Below are positions 10,021-22,423 of a stretch of DNA of 33,770 bases, piece by piece; the stretch's first letter is position 1; each line of letters starts with the position of its first letter. The stretch covers positions 1 through 33,770 of the forward strand of contig NZ_WTPX01000043.1 of assembly GCF_013036045.1 (NCBI RefSeq), read 5' to 3'. Position numbers and translations under genes: made by a program. The notes under the pieces are model-generated. The model saw only the letters and a program-made list of their open reading frames with translations, did not search any database and was not told the DNA's origin. This stretch comes from Alienimonas chondri (GTDB lineage Bacteria > Planctomycetota > Planctomycetia > Planctomycetales > Planctomycetaceae).

Positions 10021-11622
10021 GTGTTCGCCCCGCTCGCCGCCGCCGTTCTCCTCTGCGGTTTCGCCGCGGACGACGGGGCTGCGTCGTCGCCGGAGCGGGT
10101 CGAGTTCCTCGTGCTCGCCCCGAACGGCCCGCTGCGGATCGCGGCCGACGTGACCGTCGACCGCCGGCCGTTCACCGACTCCGCCGGTCGCTACCGGGAG
10201 ACGCTCATGTCTCTGGTGGACGCGGACGGCGACGGTCGCGTGACTCGCGCCGAGGCGGCCCGCACGCCGACGCCGCGGGTGCTGGGCGGCGGGGGCGATG
10301 CGAACGAAGCCGTGATGGAACTGCTGGCGCTGTTCGACGAAGCCGGCGAGCCGGGGATGCCGGTCGATCGCTTCCGCAGTTGGGTGGAGGGGGTCATGGG
10401 GCCGCCGGTGCGGGTGCGGCAGCGGTTCGCCGGCGGCGACGCCTCGGACGTGGTCGGCGTGCTGGACGCCGACGGCGACGGTCGCCTGACGCCGGAGGAA
10501 CTCCGCGGCGCCGCGGCCGGTCCGTACGATTTCGACGCCGACGGCACGCTCTCCGCCGCGGAACTCGCTCCGTTTCGCTCGAGCGCCCAACGCGCCGAAC
10601 GCCGTCACTTCCCGCCCTCCAGCCCCTTCCGCCTGCTGACGCCGGTCAAATCGCCGGGACTCGCCGCGGATCTCGCGGAGCGATACGGAACGTCCGAGGC
10701 TCCTGACGAGCCGCATCTCGTCATTAGCGTGCGGTTGATCGCCACCTCGTTCGGCCTGCCGCGGCTGTCCGTGATCGCCAATCACGCCCCGGAGCGGGTG
10801 TCGGTCGCCGAGGACCGGCGGTCGATGACTTTGACCATCGACTCCGACCCGCGAAGCGGCGCCCCGGGCCTCGAGATCGAACTGGCGGCCGATCGGGTCG
10901 AATTGCTCGGTTCGGACGCGATCTCGCTGGGCCTGTTGAACATGGTGCGGGCCGACGGCGACGCCAACGGCTATCTGGACATGATGGAATTCCCCGCCGC
11001 GAACCTCCCCGGCGCCCCGGAGTTCGCCGATGTCGACCGAGACGGCGACGAACAGGCGACGCGCGAGGAGGTCCGGGCGTTTCTCGAAGAAGACCTGCGA
11101 TTGGCGAACAGCCGGATTTACTTGCTCAGCGAGGCGGAACGCTCGGAGCTGTTCGGCCTGCTGGATGCAGACGACGACGGCCGTCTGACCCCCGCCGAGC
11201 GGTCCGCCGCCGCGGAGGCGTTCGCCTCGACCGGCCGACGCCCCGGCTCCCCGGCGGCCCTCGACCGTGACCGGGACGGCGCGATCACCGCGGACGAACT
11301 GGTCGGCCGGTTCACGCTGCACCTCGGCCCCGGCCGCCCGCCGGATCGCCCGCCCTCCGCGGACGAACTCGAGATGATCCGCGGCCGCGACCCGGGCGTT
11401 CGCTCGGAGGAAGGCCCGGAATGGTTCCGCCGCTCCGACCGCAATGGCGACGGGGCGCTGACCTGGGCGGAGTTCGTCGGCCCCCGCGACGCCTTCGACC
11501 GGTTCGACGGCGATGGGGACGGAACTTTGACGCCGGCTGAAGCGTCCGGTTCAGCGCCGGATGACGATGAATCGCCGGATGACGGCGAAGAACCCCGCCG
11601 CGGCGGCGAATCGTTAGACTAA
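10021..11622 (+). CDS. Secreted multi-EF-hand protein
   Basis: This 533-residue protein has a GTG start at 10021 and a short hydrophobic N-terminus (FAPLAAAVLLCGFA) that looks like a Sec signal peptide. It carries about eight or nine calcium-binding loops. The clearest are DADGDGRVTRAE (near residue 66), DADGDGRLTPEE (near 149), DFDADGTLSAAE (near 170), DADDDGRLTPAE (near 381), DRDRDGAITADE (near 415), DRNGDGALTWAE (near 473) and DGDGDGTLTPAE (near 496). Between residues 190 and 310 lies a non-EF region with beta character. It is probably an exported calcium-binding or structural protein; such proteins are abundant in planctomycetes. The C-terminus is acidic and Gly-rich. It ends 31 nt before the next gene, so the two may share a transcript. 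Confidence 0.82.
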   Translation: MFAPLAAAVLLCGFAADDGAASSPERVEFLVLAPNGPLRIAADVTVDRRPFTDSAGRYRETLMSLVDADGDGRVTRAEAARTPTPRVLGGGGDANEAVMELLALFDEAGEPGMPVDRFRSWVEGVMGPPVRVRQRFAGGDASDVVGVLDADGDGRLTPEELRGAAAGPYDFDADGTLSAAELAPFRSSAQRAERRHFPPSSPFRLLTPVKSPGLAADLAERYGTSEAPDEPHLVISVRLIATSFGLPRLSVIANHAPERVSVAEDRRSMTLTIDSDPRSGAPGLEIELAADRVELLGSDAISLGLLNMVRADGDANGYLDMMEFPAANLPGAPEFADVDRDGDEQATREEVRAFLEEDLRLANSRIYLLSEAERSELFGLLDADDDGRLTPAERSAAAEAFASTGRRPGSPAALDRDRDGAITADELVGRFTLHLGPGRPPDRPPSADELEMIRGRDPGVRSEEGPEWFRRSDRNGDGALTWAEFVGPRDAFDRFDGDGDGTLTPAEASGSAPDDDESPDDGEEPRRGGESLD

Positions 11623-11653: not shown

Positions 11654-13468
11654 ATGTCGCCGACTTCTCCGCCGAGAGACCTGGAGCGGATGCTCTCCGC
11701 GATTCGCGGGCGCCTGGCCTGGGCGGCGTTCGGTCGCACGCTGCTGTGGGCCGTCGCGGCGGGCTGCGCGGCGGGCGCCCTGCTGGTGCCGCTGGCGTGG
11801 TGGCGGCCGGATTGGCTGTCGACGCTGATCCTCGGAGCGGTGCCGCTCGCGGCGGTTCTGGCGCTCGGGTTGGCGATCGCCTTCCGCGAGAAGCCGACCC
11901 GCGAAGACGCCGCGAACCGGGCCGATCGCTTCGCCGGGACGAAAGATCTGTTCCTGACGGCCACGGAGCTGGGCCGCGACGAGAACGCTCCGGCCTTTGC
12001 TCCACTGGTTTACGCGAACGCTGCGGCCAACGTGCCTCGGGTCGATCCGGCCGCCGCGGTGCCGTTCGGGCTGCCCGGTCGCCGCCTCGTGCCGGCGGGC
12101 GTGGCGCTGGCCGTGTTGGTCGGGACGCTGTTCCTCGTCCCCCGCGTCGATCCGTTCGGCGCCGTCGCGGCGGCGGAAGAGGCGGCGAACGAAGCGGAGA
12201 AGTCCGCCCAAACCGCTGCCGAAGCCAAGCGGCGGACCGAGGAGCTGAAGCGCTCCCAGCCGGAATCGGATCTCTCCCCGCAGGTGACGGCCGCGGTGGA
12301 CAAGCTCGCCACGGATCTCAAGCAGACCAAGCGGGGCGAGGTGCAGGCGAACCGCAAGAAGCTCGCGGAGCGTCGCGACCAGCTCAATAAGCTGTGGCGG
12401 AAGATCAGCGCCGAGCAGGCCCGCGGCTTGCTCTCCGAGGAGGACGACCGCCGCAGTCTGGGCATGAATCCGGATGCGGACGAACGCAAGCAGTGGCTCC
12501 GCGACCTGAAGGAAGGCAACGCCGAGAGCGTCCGCGAAGCGTTGAACAAAATGGCCGCCGAAGCCGCCGAGGCTGCGAACGAGTCGGACCCGACCGCGCG
12601 GGCCGAGAAGATGGCCGCGCTGCGTGAACAGGCCCGCAAGCTGGAGAACTTCGCTCGCAACGACGCCGGCGACGAGCGTCTCGCCGAGGCGATGCGGCAG
12701 GCCGGCGAACAGCTCCGCAAAGCCGCCGAGCAAGCCAAAGCCGAGGCGAACGGCGAGGGCTCCCCCGAAGCGACCCGCAAGGCGATGCAGGAAGCCTCCG
12801 AGGCCGCCAAAGCGGTGCTCGAACAGGCGGGGCTGGAAGCCGAGAAGCTCGCTCAGGCGGCCCGCGATATGGCCGAGTTAGAGAAGGCGATGCAGACCGC
12901 CCAGCAGGCCGGCCGGCTGAACGAGATGGGCGAACTCGACGGGCAGGAAGCGACCGACGCCGCCTCCATGGCGGAGTTCTTGGAGGTCTATGAGGAGATG
13001 CTCGCTGAGAGCGGCCAGCAGGCCGTCGAAGCGACCGAAGGCACGGTGCGCGGCTCTGGCGAAGGTGAAGGAGAGGGCGAAGGCGGTGAAGGCGAGGGAG
13101 AGGGTGACGGCGACGGCGAGGGTGATGGAGACGGGGAAGGCGACGGCGTCGGCGAGTCCTCCGGCGGCACGGGCCGCGGGGAGCGGGAAGAGGTCGACGG
13201 CCGCGCGATGGACGAAACCCCGGACGCCAAAACCGGCTTTCGCACGGAGGTGTCCAAGAGCCATCTCGTCGCCGGCAAGACGCTGATGAGCCTGAAGTCC
13301 AAGGGCGAAAGCGATCGCGGCGAACGGACCACGGAGTACGAGGACAACCTCGCCCGGGTGAAAGAGGGCGTGGACGAAGCGATCTACGCCGAGGACGTCC
13401 CGCCCGGTTACCGCGACGGCATCCAGCGTTACTTCGACGCCCTCGAGCCGCCGGGCGGCGACGAGTGA
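11654..13468 (+). CDS. Membrane-anchored coiled-coil protein with Gly-acidic repeat
   Basis: A 604-residue hypothetical protein. Two hydrophobic segments (about 25-50 and 55-77) are followed by a third (about 150-170, VPAGVALAVLVGTLFLVP), then a very long Ala/Glu/Lys/Arg coiled coil (about 175-455). A GEGEG/GDGDG low-complexity run follows (about 465-500), and the C-terminus is conserved-looking (SHLVAGKTLMSLKSKG and AEDVPPGYRDGIQRYFD). Planctomycetes often encode such proteins beside VWA/BatA genes, and their C-terminus resembles a domain linked to those systems. No catalytic motif is seen. The stop overlaps the next gene's GTG by 4 nt, so it is coupled to the ABC transporter genes downstream; that link is unexplained. 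The topology suggests a short cytoplasmic N-terminus and a large soluble coiled-coil domain. Confidence 0.7.
   Translation: MSPTSPPRDLERMLSAIRGRLAWAAFGRTLLWAVAAGCAAGALLVPLAWWRPDWLSTLILGAVPLAAVLALGLAIAFREKPTREDAANRADRFAGTKDLFLTATELGRDENAPAFAPLVYANAAANVPRVDPAAAVPFGLPGRRLVPAGVALAVLVGTLFLVPRVDPFGAVAAAEEAANEAEKSAQTAAEAKRRTEELKRSQPESDLSPQVTAAVDKLATDLKQTKRGEVQANRKKLAERRDQLNKLWRKISAEQARGLLSEEDDRRSLGMNPDADERKQWLRDLKEGNAESVREALNKMAAEAAEAANESDPTARAEKMAALREQARKLENFARNDAGDERLAEAMRQAGEQLRKAAEQAKAEANGEGSPEATRKAMQEASEAAKAVLEQAGLEAEKLAQAARDMAELEKAMQTAQQAGRLNEMGELDGQEATDAASMAEFLEVYEEMLAESGQQAVEATEGTVRGSGEGEGEGEGGEGEGEGDGDGEGDGDGEGDGVGESSGGTGRGEREEVDGRAMDETPDAKTGFRTEVSKSHLVAGKTLMSLKSKGESDRGERTTEYEDNLARVKEGVDEAIYAEDVPPGYRDGIQRYFDALEPPGGDE
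13053..13151 (+). repeat. In-frame GGNGAN repeat encoding a Gly-Glu/Asp run
   Basis: Imperfect 6-nt units (GGCGAA, GGTGAA, GGCGAC and similar) encode alternating Gly-Glu and Gly-Asp over about 33 codons. The codons vary between units, so the protein composition rather than the DNA repeat appears to be maintained. A flexible acidic linker or low-affinity calcium binding is possible. Confidence 0.7.
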
Positions 13469-14517
13469 GCGCGGAAACGAACGAGATCGGCGTCTCGCGT
13501 CGGGCGTTCCTCGGAACCGCCTCCGCGGGGCTGCTGGCGGGATCGGTCGGCGCCGGCTGCGTGGGCGGCGGTGAGGACGAAGTCGTCGTCTACTGCGCCG
13601 CCGATCGCCTGCATGCCGAGCTGATCCTGCGGGACTTCGAGGATCGCACCGGCATTCGGGTGCGGGCGAAGTACGACACGGAAGCGACGAAGAGCCTCTC
13701 GCTGGTCGGTTCGCTGATCCGCGAGGCGGACGCCCCCCTGTGCGACCTGTTCTGGAACAACGAACGCGGCGGCACGGAGGATCTCGCCGCCCGCGGTTTG
13801 CTCGCCCCGTACGAGGGCCATGCCTGGCAGAACACGCCGGCCCGCCATCGCGACCCGGAAGGGTTGTGGTGCGGCTTCGGCGGACGGCTGCGGGTCTGGA
13901 TCGTCAACACGGACCGCCTGCCCACGACCCGCGCAGCGGTCGATGCGGAGTTGGCGAAGGCGGCCGAGATCAGCTTCGCCCACGCGAATCCCCGCTACGG
14001 CACGACGCTCACGCACTTTTCGCTGCTGCATCGCGAACTCGGCGACGAGGGGCTTCAGGCGTTTGCCGATCGGTTGGACGAGGCCGGGCGGGTGATCGCG
14101 TCCGGCAATGCAGCGGTGAAGGATCTCGTCGCCGCCGGCACGGTCGCCTGCGGTTGGACCGACACCGACGACGCCCACGCCGCGATCGAGGCCGGGGCGC
14201 CGGTCGAAACGCTGCCGATCGAGGTCGACGGCCCGGATGGCCCGGCGCCGATCTGCATCCCCAACACCGTCGCCCTGATCCGCGGCGGCCGACATCCCGC
14301 GCAAGCGGCCCAACTGGCGGACTGGCTGTTGGGCGAGGAGGTCGCCGTGCGATTGGCGAACGGGCCGTCGCGGCAGATTCCGCTCACCCCGATCACCGAA
14401 CCGCTGCCGGAGGACGTGGCGCAGTTCGCGGAACTCGCGGCGAATGCCGTTCCCCTCGCCGGTCTGGCGCCGCATCGGGACGCCGTTTTGCAGTGGCTGA
14501 CGGGCGCCGCGGCGTGA
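13465..14517 (+). CDS. Tat-exported lipoprotein, ABC solute-binding protein (iron/AfuA-like)
   Basis: This 350-residue periplasmic binding protein has a GTG start overlapping the upstream stop (GTGA). The N-terminus carries a twin-arginine motif SRRAFLG (11-17), a hydrophobic stretch and a lipobox ending in GAGC (Cys32), so it is probably a Tat-exported lipoprotein. The mature part begins VVVYCAADRLHAELILRDFE and continues with FEDRTGIRVRAKYD, typical of the extracellular solute-binding family 1 group of Fe3+, thiamine or spermidine binders. The pattern most resembles FbpA/AfuA-type iron binders, but I cannot confirm the tyrosine ligand pair, so the substrate is uncertain. Overlapping permease and ATPase genes downstream complete a full ABC importer. 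Confidence 0.83.
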   Translation: MSAETNEIGVSRRAFLGTASAGLLAGSVGAGCVGGGEDEVVVYCAADRLHAELILRDFEDRTGIRVRAKYDTEATKSLSLVGSLIREADAPLCDLFWNNERGGTEDLAARGLLAPYEGHAWQNTPARHRDPEGLWCGFGGRLRVWIVNTDRLPTTRAAVDAELAKAAEISFAHANPRYGTTLTHFSLLHRELGDEGLQAFADRLDEAGRVIASGNAAVKDLVAAGTVACGWTDTDDAHAAIEAGAPVETLPIEVDGPDGPAPICIPNTVALIRGGRHPAQAAQLADWLLGEEVAVRLANGPSRQIPLTPITEPLPEDVAQFAELAANAVPLAGLAPHRDAVLQWLTGAAA

Positions 14518-16010
14518 GTTTGTGGCCGAGCGTGCTGCTCTCGCTGGCTCGCACCCTGTTGGTGGTCGGCTTGGCGATCCCCGCGGCGGCGCCGATTGCC
14601 CGTCGATTGCGGGGCGAGCGGTCGAACCTCTGGTGGGCCGGCGTGCTCGCTCCGCTGCTGGTGCCCGAACTGCTGACCGGCTACGGCTGGAGCAACTTCT
14701 CGCTGTCGCTCGCCGCAAAGCCGTGGGCGAACGAAGCCCTGACCGCGGCGCTGATCTGGGGGCGATGCGTCTGCGCCGCCGCGGCGCTGCTGGCCGTCGC
14801 CCCGCCGTCGACCCGCACGGCGTCCGCGGTGTTCCTGCGGAAGCTCGTTTTCACCGGAACGCCGAGGCCCCGCGGAGCCTCGGCGTTACAGGCTTGGATG
14901 AGGGAGGGAGCGTTGCGAGCGATCGCCCGATTCGGTCCGGCGGCGGGGGTCGCGGGGCTGTTCGCGTTCGGGCAATTCGAGGTGCCGAGCCTCGCGGGGG
15001 TGAAGACCTGGGAGCCGTTCGGCTGGGCGGGGCAGTCGGCGTGGACGGTGGCGCTGTTCGACGCCCACGCGGACATGCAGAGCCTGGCCGGTTCGCTTCG
15101 CCTCGCCCTGCCGGCGGTGTTGGTGCAGCTTGTCGGGCTGATCCCTTTGTTGATCTGGCTACGGCGGTCGGGCGAACGCGGGCCGGGGGACGAACGGCAG
15201 GGGGGGGCCTCACGCGGTTCCCTCATCGCTGCAAGCGCCGTGCTCGCCGCGGCGGCGGGGCTGACGGTCCTCGTGCCGGCGGGCGTGCTGGCGTGGGAGA
15301 CGGGGCTGCAAGGGTGGACCGAGTTGGCCGCGAGCGAATGGCGGTTGTCCTCGTTCGCGGAGGAACTGGGGCTGTCGCTGGCGGTCGGGGCGGCGGCGGC
15401 GGCGCTCGCGGGGAGCGTGTTGTGGGCCGCGGGGCATGTGCGCGGCCCAGCGGGGACGGCGCTGATCGCCCTGCTGATCGCCCCGGGGCTGTGCGGGCCG
15501 CTGGTGGCGGGGCTGATCGTGAAGGCGGGCGTGACGTTCGCCGCGGCGAACGACTGGCCGGGCGGGCGGGTGCTGCAGGAGTCGTTCCTGCCGTTGATCG
15601 TTGCAGTCGCCCTATTCCTGCTCCCGCGGGCGGCACTGCTGCGGGCGTTCGCCCCGGGCCACGGTTCGGGGGCATTCCTCGCCGGGCTCCTGCGGAACGG
15701 CACGCGATCGCAACGTCGTGCGGGCGGGCGAATCTGGTGGGGGCTGACCGGGCGCTCGACTTGGGTGCGGTGGGGGCTGCTGACGCTGTGGGGCGGCGCG
15801 GACGTCTCCGCCGCCGCGCTGCTCACGCCGGCGGGCTACCAGACCGCCCCGCACGGGCTGTACAACCTGATGCACTACGGGCACAACGCGGTGCTGGGCG
15901 CGTTATGCCTGTTGAACACCGTGGCGCCGGCGGTTCTGCTCGCCCTCGGGGCCTGGGCGGCGCCGCGAGGCCGGGCGCTCCGCGGGCCGGCGATCGGAAC
16001 CACTTCATGA
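14514..16010 (+). CDS. ABC transporter permease, double-length (FbpB-like)
   Basis: The encoded 498-residue polytopic protein starts at GTG 14514 and overlaps the preceding stop by 4 nt. It has about 11-12 hydrophobic segments in two halves. Each half resembles an importer permease unit, as in FbpB/ThiP-type proteins that fuse two permease domains. A charged loop (RRSGERGPGDERQGG) near residue 225 separates the halves. Codons 116-125 hold an 11-bp inverted repeat, giving a local insert TGTPRPRGASALQAW between helices. The stop overlaps the ATPase ATG by 4 nt. It partners with the Tat lipoprotein binder upstream and the ATPase downstream. The reading frame stays open far upstream, inside the binder gene, but that part is Arg-rich shadow. 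Confidence 0.82.
   Translation: MSLWPSVLLSLARTLLVVGLAIPAAAPIARRLRGERSNLWWAGVLAPLLVPELLTGYGWSNFSLSLAAKPWANEALTAALIWGRCVCAAAALLAVAPPSTRTASAVFLRKLVFTGTPRPRGASALQAWMREGALRAIARFGPAAGVAGLFAFGQFEVPSLAGVKTWEPFGWAGQSAWTVALFDAHADMQSLAGSLRLALPAVLVQLVGLIPLLIWLRRSGERGPGDERQGGASRGSLIAASAVLAAAAGLTVLVPAGVLAWETGLQGWTELAASEWRLSSFAEELGLSLAVGAAAAALAGSVLWAAGHVRGPAGTALIALLIAPGLCGPLVAGLIVKAGVTFAAANDWPGGRVLQESFLPLIVAVALFLLPRAALLRAFAPGHGSGAFLAGLLRNGTRSQRRAGGRIWWGLTGRSTWVRWGLLTLWGGADVSAAALLTPAGYQTAPHGLYNLMHYGHNAVLGALCLLNTVAPAVLLALGAWAAPRGRALRGPAIGTTS
14858..14890. repeat. 11-bp inverted repeat inside the permease gene
   Basis: AACGCCGAGGC (14858-14868) and GCCTCGGCGTT (14877-14887) are perfect complements around an 8-nt loop. 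The right part is nearly the same as a piece of nagB at 5419-5438 (18 of 20 bases). It looks like a REP-type palindrome that settled in frame inside a loop-encoding part of the gene. Confidence 0.5.
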
Positions 16011-17890
16011 ACACGCCGGTCTTTCGCCTGAGGGAAGTCTCGCTCGCCGGCGGCGTCGGCCGATGGCGGTTGCGGCGCGTGTACGTCGATATCCCGCCCG
16101 GCGTGACGGCCGTCGTGGGGGCCAGCGGGGCGGGGAAATCGTCGCTGCTGGAAGTGCTCGCGGGGTTCGCGACGCCCTCGTCAGGCGTCGTCGAGCGGGG
16201 CGCGCCGCCTAGCGGCGACGGCGAAGCAGGGGGGCTGTTCTGGCTCCCGGCGGACCTCGGACTGTGGCCGTCAGAAACCGTTGAGGGACATCTCAGGGCC
16301 GTGCAGCCAGAACCGGACCACGCTGCCGTGGAGGAATTGCTGAGCACGTTCGGTCTTGAATCCGCGGCAGCTCGCCGGCCGGGGCTGCTCTCCGCCGGGG
16401 AGCGTTCGCGGTTGGCGGTCGCGCGGGCGATCGCCAGCCGGGCGGACGTGCTGCTGCTGGACGAACCGCTGGCCCACGTCGACCCGGCATCGCTGCCGCG
16501 GTATTGGGCTCGATTGCGTGAGGCGCTGGCCGAATGCCGGGCGGCCGTCTTCGTCACGCATGATCCGGTCGCCGCGGTGTGGGAGTCGACGCATTGTATT
16601 GCCGTCGCGGATCGGACGGTGACGTGGAGCGGCGCCACGGAGACGCTGTACCGTGATCCGCCTGAGGGAGCGCCGGCCGAACTATTGGGGCCGGTTTCGG
16701 TTCTGCCGCCGAGCGTCGCGGAGCGGCTGGGGCTGGAACGTTCGAATCGCCCGGCGAAGGTCCGTTCCGGACGCCTCGACCTCATCGCTGATCCGGACGG
16801 TTCGCTGCTTGTCGAGTCGTCTCATCCCGCTGGCCCGCTGACTGAAACCGTCGTGACCCCGGACCCGCCCGCGGAACCCTTTTCGCTACTGCATCGCACC
16901 GGCCCGCCGCTGGCCAAAGGCGCGCGGGCGGCGTTGCGGTTCGCGTTCCTGCTGCTCGCGGGGCTGTTCCCCCTCCTCGGCGCCGGGTGCGACGGCGGTC
17001 CGAAGCCGTCCGGGCCGGCGTTGAGCTTCGCCGAGGTCCGCGTGCGGGCCACGCCGAACGCCGGGGCGCAGTTGCCGGCGCCGCGGGGGGTGGGCATCGG
17101 GCCAAACGGGGAGGCGTTCGTGCTGGACGACGCCGGCCGCGTGCTGGTGTTTGCCCCCGACGGCGAAGAGCTGCGGCGCTGGGACATGCCCTCCAACGTC
17201 AACGGGAACCCGGAGGGCATCTGCGTCTACAGGCCGCCGGGCTCGGAGGAGTGGCTGGTCGCCGTGGCGGACACGCACTTCCATCGCATCGTGCTGTTCA
17301 CCACCGAGGGCGAGGAAGTCGTGCGATGGGGCGTGGAGGGGGACGAACCGGGCGACTTCCGCTTCCCGGTCGCGGTGACGGCCGACGATGCGGGGCGTTT
17401 GTACGTCGGCGAGTACGGCGGGAACGATCGCGTGCAGGTGTTCTCGCCGCATCCGGAGAACCGTCCGCTGCGGGAGTTCGGTTCGTTCGGCACCGGTCCG
17501 GGCCAGTTCAGCCGAGCCAGCGGCGTGGCCTGGGTTCCGCCCGAACGCGAGGGAAAGGACGCGTTCGTGTTGGTCGCCGACGCCTTCGGCGACCGCATTG
17601 CGCGATTCACGGATCAGGGCGAATACCGCGGCGTGCTGGGCGGCGACGACGCGGTTGCGCTGCACAGCCCTTACGACCTGGCCCGGGCCGCGGACGGCAC
17701 GCTTTGGGTGCCGGAGTACCACGGCGGCCGGGTGACGGCGCTGCGGCCGGACGGCACGCTGATTGGACGATGGAGCCGCGACGAAAAGGCCGGCGCCCTG
17801 CTGACGCCGTGGGGGTTGGACGTGGATGCTGCCGGCCGGGTGTGGGTCGCGGACACGGGGAACCGGCGGCTGGTGACGCTGGTGCCGTAG
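16007..17890 (+). CDS. ABC ATPase fused in frame to a lipoprotein-like NHL propeller
   Basis: One 627-residue frame starts at ATG 16007 (ATGA overlap with the permease). Residues 1-230 are an ABC ATPase: Walker A GASGAGKSS (about 41-49), signature LLSAGERSRLAVARA, Walker B DVLLLDEPLAHVD, His loop VFVTHD. The Q-loop position reads LPADLGLWPS, without the usual Gln. Residues about 235-308 look like a TOBE-type tail (LLHRTGPPLAKGARAAL). Then residues 310-328 form a lipoprotein-type signal ending GAGC (Cys328), followed by six NHL repeats (for example PRGVGIGPNGEAFVLD, GRLYVGEYGGNDRVQVF, GRVWVADTGNRRLVTL). No stop separates the parts. It is either a genuine ATPase-membrane-propeller fusion or two proteins, the second starting at an internal codon such as TTG 16934. 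The ATPase should power the importer encoded upstream. Confidence 0.8.
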   Translation: MNTPVFRLREVSLAGGVGRWRLRRVYVDIPPGVTAVVGASGAGKSSLLEVLAGFATPSSGVVERGAPPSGDGEAGGLFWLPADLGLWPSETVEGHLRAVQPEPDHAAVEELLSTFGLESAAARRPGLLSAGERSRLAVARAIASRADVLLLDEPLAHVDPASLPRYWARLREALAECRAAVFVTHDPVAAVWESTHCIAVADRTVTWSGATETLYRDPPEGAPAELLGPVSVLPPSVAERLGLERSNRPAKVRSGRLDLIADPDGSLLVESSHPAGPLTETVVTPDPPAEPFSLLHRTGPPLAKGARAALRFAFLLLAGLFPLLGAGCDGGPKPSGPALSFAEVRVRATPNAGAQLPAPRGVGIGPNGEAFVLDDAGRVLVFAPDGEELRRWDMPSNVNGNPEGICVYRPPGSEEWLVAVADTHFHRIVLFTTEGEEVVRWGVEGDEPGDFRFPVAVTADDAGRLYVGEYGGNDRVQVFSPHPENRPLREFGSFGTGPGQFSRASGVAWVPPEREGKDAFVLVADAFGDRIARFTDQGEYRGVLGGDDAVALHSPYDLARAADGTLWVPEYHGGRVTALRPDGTLIGRWSRDEKAGALLTPWGLDVDAAGRVWVADTGNRRLVTLVP

Positions 17891-17901
17891 CGGAGGACGT
17901 A

Positions 17902-18001
17902 GAGCCGCGACCGTCAGGGAGCGTCTCTGGTCGCGTTCCCCAACTCGGCGGCGTTCGATGAGGTCATTGCGTAGAGAGACGCTCCCTAACGGTCGCGGCT
18001 C
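17902..18001. repeat. Long inverted repeat, 27-bp arms with one mismatch
   Basis: The arms are 17902-17928 and 17975-18001, with a 46-nt loop. They start GAGCCGCGACCGT and end GAGCGTCTCT, and differ by one base. It fills much of the 225-nt gap between the ATPase-NHL gene and the VWA gene, where no gene is seen. It is probably a mobile REP-pair element, and it may end the upstream transcript. Confidence 0.7.
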
Positions 18002-18115: not shown

Positions 18116-21100
18116 ATGGCCGTCGATCCCCATCGCCGATCCACGCTGACCTCCGCCGGGCGGCGCGATCGAGCCGGGTTCTGGGAGCGAACGGTGCGGT
18201 CGGCGTTCCCGGAGTCCCGCACGCCGGTGCGGCCCCGCGATTACTGGCCGCTGGCCGCGTTCGCTTTGCTTCTGGCGGGCTTCTACATCTGGCTGCAGAT
18301 CGACGAACGGGTGCTGTTTGCCCGGCCGGCGTTGTTCGGACTGCTGATCGCCGCCCCGTGGGTCTGGTGGCTGGCGGTGGCGAACCGCGGCGGGATGGGC
18401 ACGACGCGGGCTGAGGCGTCGACCTTCCTCCGGCTGTGTTTGCTCGGGCTGTGCGTCGCGGCGCTGGCGGAGCCGCGGGCAGTGCGGGAGCGGGACGTGA
18501 CGAGCGTCGTGTTCGCGCTGGACGTCTCCGACAGCGTCGGTCGCAGCGTGGAGAGCCAGGCGCTGGAACTGTTCGCCGGCGCCTCCGCCGAGAAGCCCAC
18601 GAACGACGAAGCCGGGCTCGTTGTGTTCGGACGGAACGCCGCCGTCGAACTCCCGCCGAAGAAAAGCGTGGCGTTCGAGGGCGTGATCAACTCCCAGGTC
18701 GACCGCGACGCGACGAACCTCGAACAGACCCTGAGCCTATCCGCGGCGATGATCCCGGAGGAGAACGCCGGCCGGGTCGTGCTCATCTCCGACGGCACGG
18801 AGACCGAAGGCCGGCTCGCCGGGGAACTGGATAGCCTGCGGGGCCGCGGCATCAAAGTGGACGTGCTGCCGGTGGACTACGGCGGGCGGGAAGAGGTCTG
18901 GCTCGAACGGCTCGACCTGCCCCGGTTCGTTAGGGAGGGGGAGAGCTACGAAGCCAGCGTCGTGCTGGAAGCCCTCGGCGCCGGCTCCGGGAAACTCACC
19001 CTGACGGAGAACGGCGAGGAGATCGCCAGCGAGCAGGTCGAGTACCGCGAGGGCAAGAACCGGTTCAGCTTCCCCATCCGTCTCCGCGGCCCCGGCTATT
19101 ACGAGTACGCCGCGACCATCAAAGCCGATAACGGCGCCGACGGCGTCGAAGCGAACAACACGGCCCTTAACTACCTCTATCTGGAGGGCGCCGGGAAGAT
19201 CCTCGTCGTCACCGACCCGTCCGGCGATCCGCGGGACGTGGACGACTTCGTCGCCGCCGCCCGCGAGGGCGAACGGGACGTGACCGTCATCGACGGCTAC
19301 GCCTTCCCGCGGGACGTGCTGAGCCTGATGCCCTACGACCTGATCGTGTTCGCCGGCGTCCCGGCGGACGCCTTCGACGCCCGGCAACTCAGCGCCGTGC
19401 GGGACTCGGTGGCGGACATGGGCGTCGGCTTCCTGATGCTCGGCGGGGAGAACAGCTTCGGCGCCGGCGGCTATCAGAACACGCCGATCGAAGAAGCGTT
19501 GCCGGTCGATCTGGACATCACCCGCCGCAAGGTGCTGCCCAAGGGGGCGCTGGTCATCATCTTGCACACGTGCGAGTTCCCGCAGGGAAACACCTGGGGC
19601 AAGCGGATCTGCAAACGGGCGATCAAGGTCCTCGGCGATCAGGACGAGTGCGGCGTGCTGGTCGCGGACTACGTCGACGGCGAGAGCTGGCTGTTCGAGT
19701 TGACCCCCGCGGCGAAGTACCCGGAGCTGGTGCCCAAGATCAACGCCGCCCAGATCGGCGACATGCCGGACTTCGCCCAGACGATGAGCGCCGGCCTGAA
19801 GGCGTTGAAGGAGAGCGACGCCAGTGCCAAGCACATGATCATCATCTCGGACGCCGACCCCAGCCCGCCCTCGGCGGCCCTCATCAAAGGCTTCGCCGAT
19901 GAGAAGATCGCCATCAGCACCGTCGCCGTCTTCCCCCACCAGGGCGACCGGGCCAGTCTGAACACCATGCGCGGCATCGCCGCGGGCACCGGCGGACGGT
20001 TCTATCTGCCGGACGACCCCAATCAGCTGCCGGGCATTTTCGTGAAGGAGGCGAAGACGCTTCGCCGAACGTTGATTCAGAACAAAACGGTCGTCCCGGA
20101 GGTCGCCCTCGGTCACCCCATCCTCAAGGGGCTGGTCGACTTGCCGCCGGTCCGCGGGTTGGTACTGACCACTCCCAAAGAGGGCCTGAACGAGCAGATC
20201 CTGCGGGTGCCGTCCGACGAACAGGTCGCCCCTGGCGAGTTTGACCCGATCCTCGCCGTCCGGCAGTTCGGTCTCGGGCGCACGGGCGCGTTCACCGCGG
20301 ACCTCGGGCCGAACTGGGGCGCCGACTGGGTGACGTGGGAAGGCTACGGCCCGTTTGTCCGGCAGCTCGTCACGCATCTCGGCCGCGTCCGCAAGCAGGG
20401 GCACCTGCGGATGAGCACCTACACTGACGGCTCCGACGGGGTGATCGTCGTCGAGGACTTCCATCCCTCGGAGCGGTTCCTGGAGATCTCCACCTCCGTC
20501 GCCGGGCCGCGGGAGAAGACGGAATCGCTTCCACTGGTGCAGGTCGGTCCCCGCCGCTATCAGGCCCGTTTGCCGCTGTGGGGAAAGGGCCGTTACCAAG
20601 TGATCGGTCGCTCCGTCACCGCCGGCGGCGGGGCGTTGGAGTCCCCGGCATCAGAGACGCCGGTCCCCGAAGGCGACACGCCGATGGGCACCGTCGCCGG
20701 GGCGAACGATGCGATCGAAGACGCCCCCGTCGCCGACGACGGCACGGAGCAGGTCGCCGGCGGATTCATCCTCCCCTACAGCGCGGAGTATCTGCGGTTC
20801 CGCAGCGACCCGATCGTGCTGAAGAACGTCGCCGAGCGCACCGGCGGGCGGGTGCTGGTCCCGGACGAAGAGACGACGAAATCGCTGTTCACCGTTGACC
20901 GCGAGCCGAAACGCAGCAGCCGACCGATCTTCGATTGGCTGCTGATCGTGTTGGCCTGCCTGATCCCGCTGGACGTGGCCGTGCGTCGGGTGCAGCTCGA
21001 TTGGTCGCTGATCACGGGGCTGTTCAAGAAGGAGAAGCTCGGCGTCGCCGGCGCCGGCGGGCCGACGCTGGAAGGGCTGCTCGCCAGGAAGCGGGAGCAC

Positions 21101-21265
21101 GCTCCGCCGTCCCGGCGTCCCGTCAGCCGCGCCAAGCCGACCAGCGTTCGCTCCGCCGCCTCCGAGAAGGCGGCGCCGGCTCCCCCTCCCGCGAAGAAAT
21201 CGGCTCCGCCGGCGAACACCACCGCGGCGCTGCTGGATTTGAAGAAGAAACGCGACCGGTCCTGA
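18116..21265 (+). CDS. Large VWA / glutamine-amidotransferase-like membrane protein
   Basis: A 1049-residue protein. Three hydrophobic segments near the N-terminus (about 43-61, 70-90, 100-118) lead into a VWA domain with an intact MIDAS start, ALDVSDSVGRS (about 136-146), and ISDGTETEG. A beta-sandwich-like region follows (about 255-350), then a class I glutamine-amidotransferase-like fold (GKILVVTDPSGDPRDVDD ... MLGGENSFGAGGY, about 360-455). Next comes a second VWA-like stretch (ALVIILHTCEFPQGN ... MIIISDADPSPPS) whose MIDAS is degenerate. A C-terminal helix (WLLIVLACLIPLDVAV, about 940-955) leads to a Lys/Pro/Ala-rich cytoplasmic tail. This architecture is common in planctomycete and proteobacterial MoxR-linked clusters. 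It lies 45 nt before the MoxR gene, which fits a joint role in envelope protein assembly. ATG 18116 has no clear ribosome site. Confidence 0.83.
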   Translation: MAVDPHRRSTLTSAGRRDRAGFWERTVRSAFPESRTPVRPRDYWPLAAFALLLAGFYIWLQIDERVLFARPALFGLLIAAPWVWWLAVANRGGMGTTRAEASTFLRLCLLGLCVAALAEPRAVRERDVTSVVFALDVSDSVGRSVESQALELFAGASAEKPTNDEAGLVVFGRNAAVELPPKKSVAFEGVINSQVDRDATNLEQTLSLSAAMIPEENAGRVVLISDGTETEGRLAGELDSLRGRGIKVDVLPVDYGGREEVWLERLDLPRFVREGESYEASVVLEALGAGSGKLTLTENGEEIASEQVEYREGKNRFSFPIRLRGPGYYEYAATIKADNGADGVEANNTALNYLYLEGAGKILVVTDPSGDPRDVDDFVAAAREGERDVTVIDGYAFPRDVLSLMPYDLIVFAGVPADAFDARQLSAVRDSVADMGVGFLMLGGENSFGAGGYQNTPIEEALPVDLDITRRKVLPKGALVIILHTCEFPQGNTWGKRICKRAIKVLGDQDECGVLVADYVDGESWLFELTPAAKYPELVPKINAAQIGDMPDFAQTMSAGLKALKESDASAKHMIIISDADPSPPSAALIKGFADEKIAISTVAVFPHQGDRASLNTMRGIAAGTGGRFYLPDDPNQLPGIFVKEAKTLRRTLIQNKTVVPEVALGHPILKGLVDLPPVRGLVLTTPKEGLNEQILRVPSDEQVAPGEFDPILAVRQFGLGRTGAFTADLGPNWGADWVTWEGYGPFVRQLVTHLGRVRKQGHLRMSTYTDGSDGVIVVEDFHPSERFLEISTSVAGPREKTESLPLVQVGPRRYQARLPLWGKGRYQVIGRSVTAGGGALESPASETPVPEGDTPMGTVAGANDAIEDAPVADDGTEQVAGGFILPYSAEYLRFRSDPIVLKNVAERTGGRVLVPDEETTKSLFTVDREPKRSSRPIFDWLLIVLACLIPLDVAVRRVQLDWSLITGLFKKEKLGVAGAGGPTLEGLLARKREHAPPSRRPVSRAKPTSVRSAASEKAAPAPPPAKKSAPPANTTAALLDLKKKRDRS

Positions 21266-21310
21266 CGGCCCCCGGCAGGCTCCCGGTTTCCATCCCCCGA
21301 CGAACGAAGC

Positions 21311-22419
<1,109 letters not shown>

Positions 22420-22423
<4 letters not shown>

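Follow-up and report, generated by a model that had tools for sequence, protein, structure and literature searches.

The window, by which we mean the whole stretch of 33,770 nt analysed here (contig NZ_WTPX01000043.1 of Alienimonas chondri, GCF_013036045.1), carries an open reading frame (ORF; 16007..17890, forward strand) in which an ATP-binding cassette (ABC) ATPase runs on into an NHL-propeller lipoprotein. The frame extends from ATG 16007 to TAG 17890, 627 codons with zero internal stops, and its product shows in succession an FbpC/MalK-type ABC ATPase, a lipoprotein-type segment (LRFAFLLLAGLFPLLGAGC) and a six-bladed NHL propeller. Pfam matched the 627-aa product to ABC_tran at residues 26-156 (6.9e-21) and to NHL (3.8e-11, above the cut-off, with two stretches passing by themselves). 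A preliminary description of this DNA had proposed an ABC ATPase in frame with a lipoprotein signal and six NHL repeats, which the uninterrupted frame, Pfam and the AlphaFold2 model bear out; its estimate of a 68-kDa product was slightly too high, as the calculated mass is 66.5 kDa (34.3 and 32.2 kDa if the protein is cut at Cys328).

The ABC ATPase domain (16007..16693), assigned from Pfam and its conserved motifs, contains on the same strand Walker A (16112-16141, GASGAGKSS), the ABC signature LSAGER (16388-16405), Walker B with the catalytic Glu (16448-16468, VLLLDEP) and the H-loop His, H185 (16559-16561). These key columns (Walker A, the LSAGE signature, Walker B and the H-loop His) were invariant or nearly so in 58 aligned fused sequences. 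The AlphaFold2 model of the fused protein (predicted local distance difference test score, pLDDT, 91.4; predicted template modelling score 0.55) was confident inside the domains and uncertain between them. It placed after the ABC domain a strand-rich C-terminal domain at residues 230-312, whose last strand (307-312) leads straight into the hydrophobic segment. Foldseek gave T. thermophilus FbpC (9j4r_B) as the top match of the model, aligned over 342 columns, while the remainder of the model was closest to solved NHL propellers. The TOBE part of the preliminary description calls for a correction: the Pfam TOBE family gave no match in the product up to E 1, and it is the model together with the FbpC/MalK chain matches that suggests a TOBE-like domain (16694..16942, forward strand) in the ATPase half. 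The six-bladed NHL beta-propeller (17015..17887, forward strand) was assigned from Pfam, the model and structural alignment; it aligns with the NHL domain of Thin (Z 37.2, root mean square deviation (rmsd) 2.7, 275 residues).

Between these two halves lies the hydrophobic core of the lipoprotein signal (16943..16981, residues 313-325), followed by the lipobox GAGC (16979..16990), both on the forward strand, in which Cys328 (16988-16990) is the predicted point of lipidation and cleavage. The signal is therefore internal, and not N-terminal, as the Cys is residue 328 of 627. When all stop-to-stop frames of at least 300 aa in the window (23,698 residues in six frames) were scanned with a strict lipobox pattern, this segment was the sole match. 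In the model a helix at 313-320 abuts the strand at 307-312 with no linker, residues 323-332 around Cys328 have a pLDDT below 50, and the propeller lies beyond.

The preliminary description had proposed looking for the same ABC-then-NHL order in related genomes. When 170 genomes from the order to which the window belongs were searched, 128 gave a match with an E-value of 1e-30 or lower, and 122 loci were read. The same fused frame was present in 68 other genomes of the order at 38-73% identity, single-contig genomes among them, and the 71 fused loci comprise these, the window itself and two named metagenome-assembled genomes (L041 and L044). The 69 fused genomes of the order are a lower bound, since fused-looking matches in G094, G091, G139, G163 and G102 and the genomes with half matches were not counted. 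At 31 distinct loci the ABC gene is followed by a separate NHL gene, with a spacing of 67-468 bases and one exception at 1,720, and at 14 loci the NHL gene is alone within the fetched stretch. Duplicates of whole-genome loci (L038, L039, L040, L042 and L043) were excluded from the Cys, start-codon and state counts, and the locus of genome G072 (L139), which has an in-frame TAA, was excluded from both the fused and the separate counts. The phylum was sampled with 392 genomes, 173 of them matching at E 1e-20; four further fused genes, each with the lipobox Cys, were found in other families (L230, L231, L232 and L233). The state also changes within one genus, in which G005 (L141) is fused and G004 (L158) has an ABC gene shortened before the TOBE-like part and a separate NHL gene.

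It could be supposed that the continuous frame is an accident, arising from stop loss, a sequencing error or a decaying gene, as the separate genes at 31 loci and the in-frame TAA in G072 might suggest; the preliminary description had likewise held that relatives with two genes would imply a local stop loss. That implication did not hold, for such relatives exist, yet 71 loci are fused. The number of fused genomes in the order rules out a local stop loss or sequencing error, and both the ATPase motifs and the propeller residues are conserved in the fused sequences, so that an accidental frame is in our view hardly conceivable.

The lipobox Cys was found in 71 of 71 fused loci examined, at about 40% identity. 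In the 58 aligned fused sequences Cys328 was invariant and Gly327 was kept in 57, this Gly alone among the near neighbours of the Cys being comparably constant; over the 71 loci the residue preceding the Cys was Gly in 68 and Ser in 3. The junction of the fused species follows the pattern HRP....L..G.RV.LR, then a hydrophobic run, then GC. In species with separate genes, most ABC genes end in a similar ..L..G.RV.L stretch and a stop, about where the hydrophobic run would begin, although some (L158, L160, L163 and L177, for example) terminate earlier than that stretch, and the separate NHL genes have their own hydrophobic run and GC, with the Cys in 45 of 45. Since the ends of the separate genes match the junction, it appears that in the fusion the end of the ATPase serves as the positively charged beginning of the lipoprotein signal. 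The run from the last charged residue to the Cys had a median of 13 residues in the fused proteins (10-18, n=71) vs 15 in the separate lipoproteins (9-27, n=45; p = 0.055), and the median in the fused proteins is a length usual for signal peptides. As a control, runs in the permeases had a median of 26 (n=52, 6 loci), a value raised by counting only runs of at least 15. The mean net charge in the 58 sequences was about +2.5 before the segment (lowest -1) and -1.3 after it, a drop that fits an N-in/C-out placement, the orientation of a signal peptide.

We consider it likely, on the evidence of the sequences, that the gene encodes one precursor with an internal lipoprotein signal, which would be lipidated by Lgt and cut by Lsp (signal peptidase II) into an ATPase and a lipoprotein. 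The fused gene would be translated into one polypeptide whose ABC ATPase part folds in the cytoplasm, the internal segment would act as the signal through which Sec exports all that follows, Lgt would lipidate Cys328 and Lsp would cut before it. The outcome would be two proteins in a 1:1 ratio, namely the ATPase subunit of an FbpABC-like importer and an NHL propeller held by its lipid at the outer face of the inner membrane. Genes for both Lsp and Lgt are present in the Alienimonas chondri genome. Some points weigh against this proposal. The fused segments are more hydrophobic than the signals of the separate lipoproteins (best 12-mer 2.77 vs 2.44, p = 2e-7), which could suit a membrane anchor too, and we are aware of no case, verified by experiment, in which Lsp cuts downstream of a folded cytoplasmic domain some 300 residues long. 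Moreover, 66 of the 71 fused junctions hold at least one ATG, GTG or TTG at positions -45 to -13 from the Cys, so that an internal start is possible in any single species, and a start-type codon is also held by 8 of the 9 examined genes in which the lipoprotein is fused to a permease (described below).

The higher hydrophobicity would suit an uncleaved protein, in which the ATPase stays joined to the extracytoplasmic propeller in a sensor-motor fusion that might be lipidated at the Cys yet remain uncut. The persistence of the fusion across wide divergence is in keeping with such a tether, and there is a precedent for a cytoplasmic enzyme carrying an extracellular NHL propeller, namely M. tuberculosis PknD, the propeller of which (1rwl) has the same fold as the one described here (Z 30.2, rmsd 2.3, 246 residues). 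In PknD, however, the NHL domain is joined to a cytoplasmic kinase by a proper membrane span and there is no lipobox, whereas here an ABC ATPase is followed by a short run and a lipobox. The 10-18 residues before the Cys fall short of a membrane span of about 20 in all 71 fused proteins. The lack of a linker between the TOBE-like strand and the helix also counts against a tether, as the TOBE-type domain of MalK/FbpC complexes faces away from the membrane. Furthermore, an invariant lipobox Cys would be unexplained if the segment were a plain anchor, and the two proteins are made separately in many species. Given the invariance of the Cys and a hydrophobic run on the short side for spanning a membrane, we favour the cut precursor over a permanent tether, which we regard as possible but rather unlikely. 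Thus, of the sensor-motor fusion suggested in the preliminary description, the in-frame fusion itself is genuine and widely conserved, while the lasting connection is the less likely part.

An internal start near the hydrophobic segment would instead give two proteins from one frame, with or without the full-length product. The preliminary description had pointed to TTG 16934, which is in frame at Cys minus 18 and would yield a short yet plausible lipoprotein signal. This codon is not fixed in place, for the sister species (L009) has no TTG there and has a GTG at Cys minus 20. Start-type codons were found at background frequency, since the same genes predict 87% for any of the three codons at -45 to -13 (about 62 junctions, with 66 observed) and 27% for ATG (about 19, with 20 of 71 observed); for comparison, ATG was present in 36 of 45 separate NHL genes. 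Five of the 71 junctions have no start-type codon at -45 to -13 and 16 have none at -35 to -14, and the permease fusion L224, one of the nine examined, has none from -48 to -4. At fourfold sites the junction changes as fast as elsewhere in two clades (16 and 12 species), with synonymous change not reduced. With start-type codons at background and no constraint on synonymous sites, we regard a conserved internal start as unlikely, and two separately initiated proteins seem to us an improbable account of the locus.

The fused gene is the last of three genes on the forward strand. The first encodes a substrate-binding protein (SBP; 13465..14517, GTG start; SBP_bac_8, 2.1e-7) and the second a permease of 498 aa (14514..16010), whose GTG start overlaps the stop of the SBP gene (GTGA at 14514-14517) and whose TGA overlaps the ATG of the ATPase gene (ATGA). 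These overlapping stops and starts indicate that the SBP, permease and ATPase genes form a tight operon. A simple scan detected 8 hydrophobic segments in the permease, and a homologue lies upstream in 78 of the 122 loci; searches of Pfam (up to E 0.1) and, by sequence, of the PDB returned nothing for the permease. An SBP homologue lies upstream on the same strand in 47 of the 122 loci (five duplicates included), and the 30 loci with only about 1.5 kb of flank could not show one. At its N-terminus (13465-13560) the SBP combines a twin-arginine stretch (SRRAFLG) with a GAGC lipobox, which suggests a lipoprotein exported by the twin-arginine pathway.

The closest PDB relatives of the SBP are FbpA-type iron-binding proteins, and its NCBIfam matches, all far below the cut-offs, are to 2-aminoethylphosphonate binding proteins. 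In ferric-iron binding proteins adjacent Tyr residues are expected as iron ligands. No conserved Tyr pair was found in this SBP: when 47 binding proteins were aligned, Tyr43 alone among the Tyr positions reached 93% conservation. The evidence therefore does not support iron as the substrate, although the SBP and Foldseek matches point to FbpA and FbpBC.

The NHL lipoprotein was also found fused in frame to a permease in ten members of the phylum (L216-L218, L220 and L222-L227, of families f89, f96 and f7). They were taken from long-frame matches only and are not a census. The lipobox Cys is invariant in all ten, and an SBP homologue lies just upstream in eight. In the model of one of them (L218, pLDDT 78.5) the permease helices extend to residue 549 and are followed by a short helix (554-563), with low confidence at 553-577, and then by the propeller. 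Its permease part matches FbpB (9j4r_A), the first permease match, at rank 27 after NHL domains. The ATPase and permease fusion partners thus match two chains of one solved importer, 9j4r_B (FbpC) and 9j4r_A (FbpB). Three other planctomycete loci (L045, L046 and L048) have separate adjacent frames for an SBP, a permease-like protein and the NHL lipoprotein, and no ATPase match was present in the fetched stretch.

In the tree of NHL sequences the ten permease fusions form one side of a branch (Shimodaira-Hasegawa-like approximate likelihood ratio test 94), apart from the ATPase fusions, in what is a quick tree with long branches. As drawn, the fused label changes 11 times on the tree, and given the starred branches at least 3 changes are unavoidable. 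Of its 132 inner branches 40 are drawn open, and it carries a warning that long branches come together, several of these being permease fusions or fused rows from other families. A single origin of the ATPase fusion was not upheld, as at least three changes of label are forced; these changes may be fusions or fissions. Since the lipoprotein is joined to the ATPase in one lineage and to the permease in another, its fusion to the cytoplasmic end of a subunit of its own transporter has happened at least twice, involving different subunits.

The NHL propeller is tied to this importer by its operon, by the FbpBC-like subunits and by the recurrence of the fusion. Like its export, lipidation and cleavage, a role of the propeller as an accessory or sensor of the importer is our inference; it may bind or detect a ligand next to the SBP. 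In a wider formulation, which we hold to be somewhat favoured, a bacterial ABC importer would be produced from a polyprotein that is cut by signal peptidase II at an internal lipoprotein signal, and the lipoprotein would have been captured at least twice by different subunits of its transporter (the ATPase in one lineage, the permease in another), since any upstream partner with a cytoplasmic C-terminus could replace the n-region of the signal. The ATPase would then keep a C-terminal signal-peptide tail, which might keep the enzyme at the membrane or be trimmed off.

The most similar importer is the FbpABC ferric-ion importer (T. thermophilus FbpBC, 9j4r; N. gonorrhoeae FbpC, 3fvq), which shares the gene order SBP, permease, ATPase; the ATPase half resembles 9j4r_B, the permease of the permease-fused relative resembles 9j4r_A and the SBP resembles FbpA-type proteins. 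To our knowledge, FbpABC has no NHL lipoprotein. Apart from the missing Tyr pair, the present system differs in that the Q-loop Gln is not kept in most fused ATPases. Residue 82 (16250-16252), which motif spacing indicates as the likely Q-loop position, is Ala here and Gln in 7 of the 58 fused ATPases, and the surrounding W79, P81, G85, L86 and W87 vary little or not at all across the same sequences. Of 31 separate ABC genes examined, the motif was located in 26, and 20 of these keep the Gln. Its replacement in the fused ATPases may reflect the history of the clade and not be a consequence of fusion.

Other features flank the operon. Upstream, a protein with many EF-hand matches is encoded at 10021-11622, and downstream (18116-22423) are a large vWA/GATase1-like protein and a MoxR-type AAA ATPase. 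The fused gene is directly followed by an inverted repeat (17906-17997; arms CGCGACCGTnAGGGAGCG). The genome has 16 copies of its 18-base arm, arranged in seven facing pairs plus two singles, and 0 of the reversed control pattern; the repeat is a dispersed palindromic element.

Compared with known bacterial lipoproteins (Lgt/Lsp substrates), the segment has the same positive charges, 10-18 uncharged residues and lipobox with an invariant Cys, and differs in being internal, about 310 residues in, behind a cytoplasmic enzyme or a multispanning permease. The FbcH cytochrome b/c1 precursor of Bradyrhizobium japonicum combines two subunits of a complex in a single ORF, and a signal peptidase cuts it at the export signal that joins them. 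Here also two subunits lie in one frame with an internal export signal, and the genes are separate in relatives; in FbcH, however, signal peptidase I and a cytochrome are involved, and here the prediction is signal peptidase II and a lipoprotein. By this analogy FbcH would be the nearest known kind, and what appears new is a version using the lipoprotein pathway. Neither an internal lipoprotein signal nor an ABC-NHL fusion was described in the titles and abstract openings that searches of the open-access literature listed.

If the proposed processing is true, the pathway of lipoprotein export and maturation tolerates large folded or multispanning proteins ahead of the signal, and bacteria would have in such fusions a simple means to fix the ratio of subunits and to co-localise them across the membrane. 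The assumption in annotation that lipoprotein signals are N-terminal would be broken, and such lipoproteins may thus be missed elsewhere. For this family of ABC importers, the fusion to either of two subunits ties an NHL propeller to the transporter.

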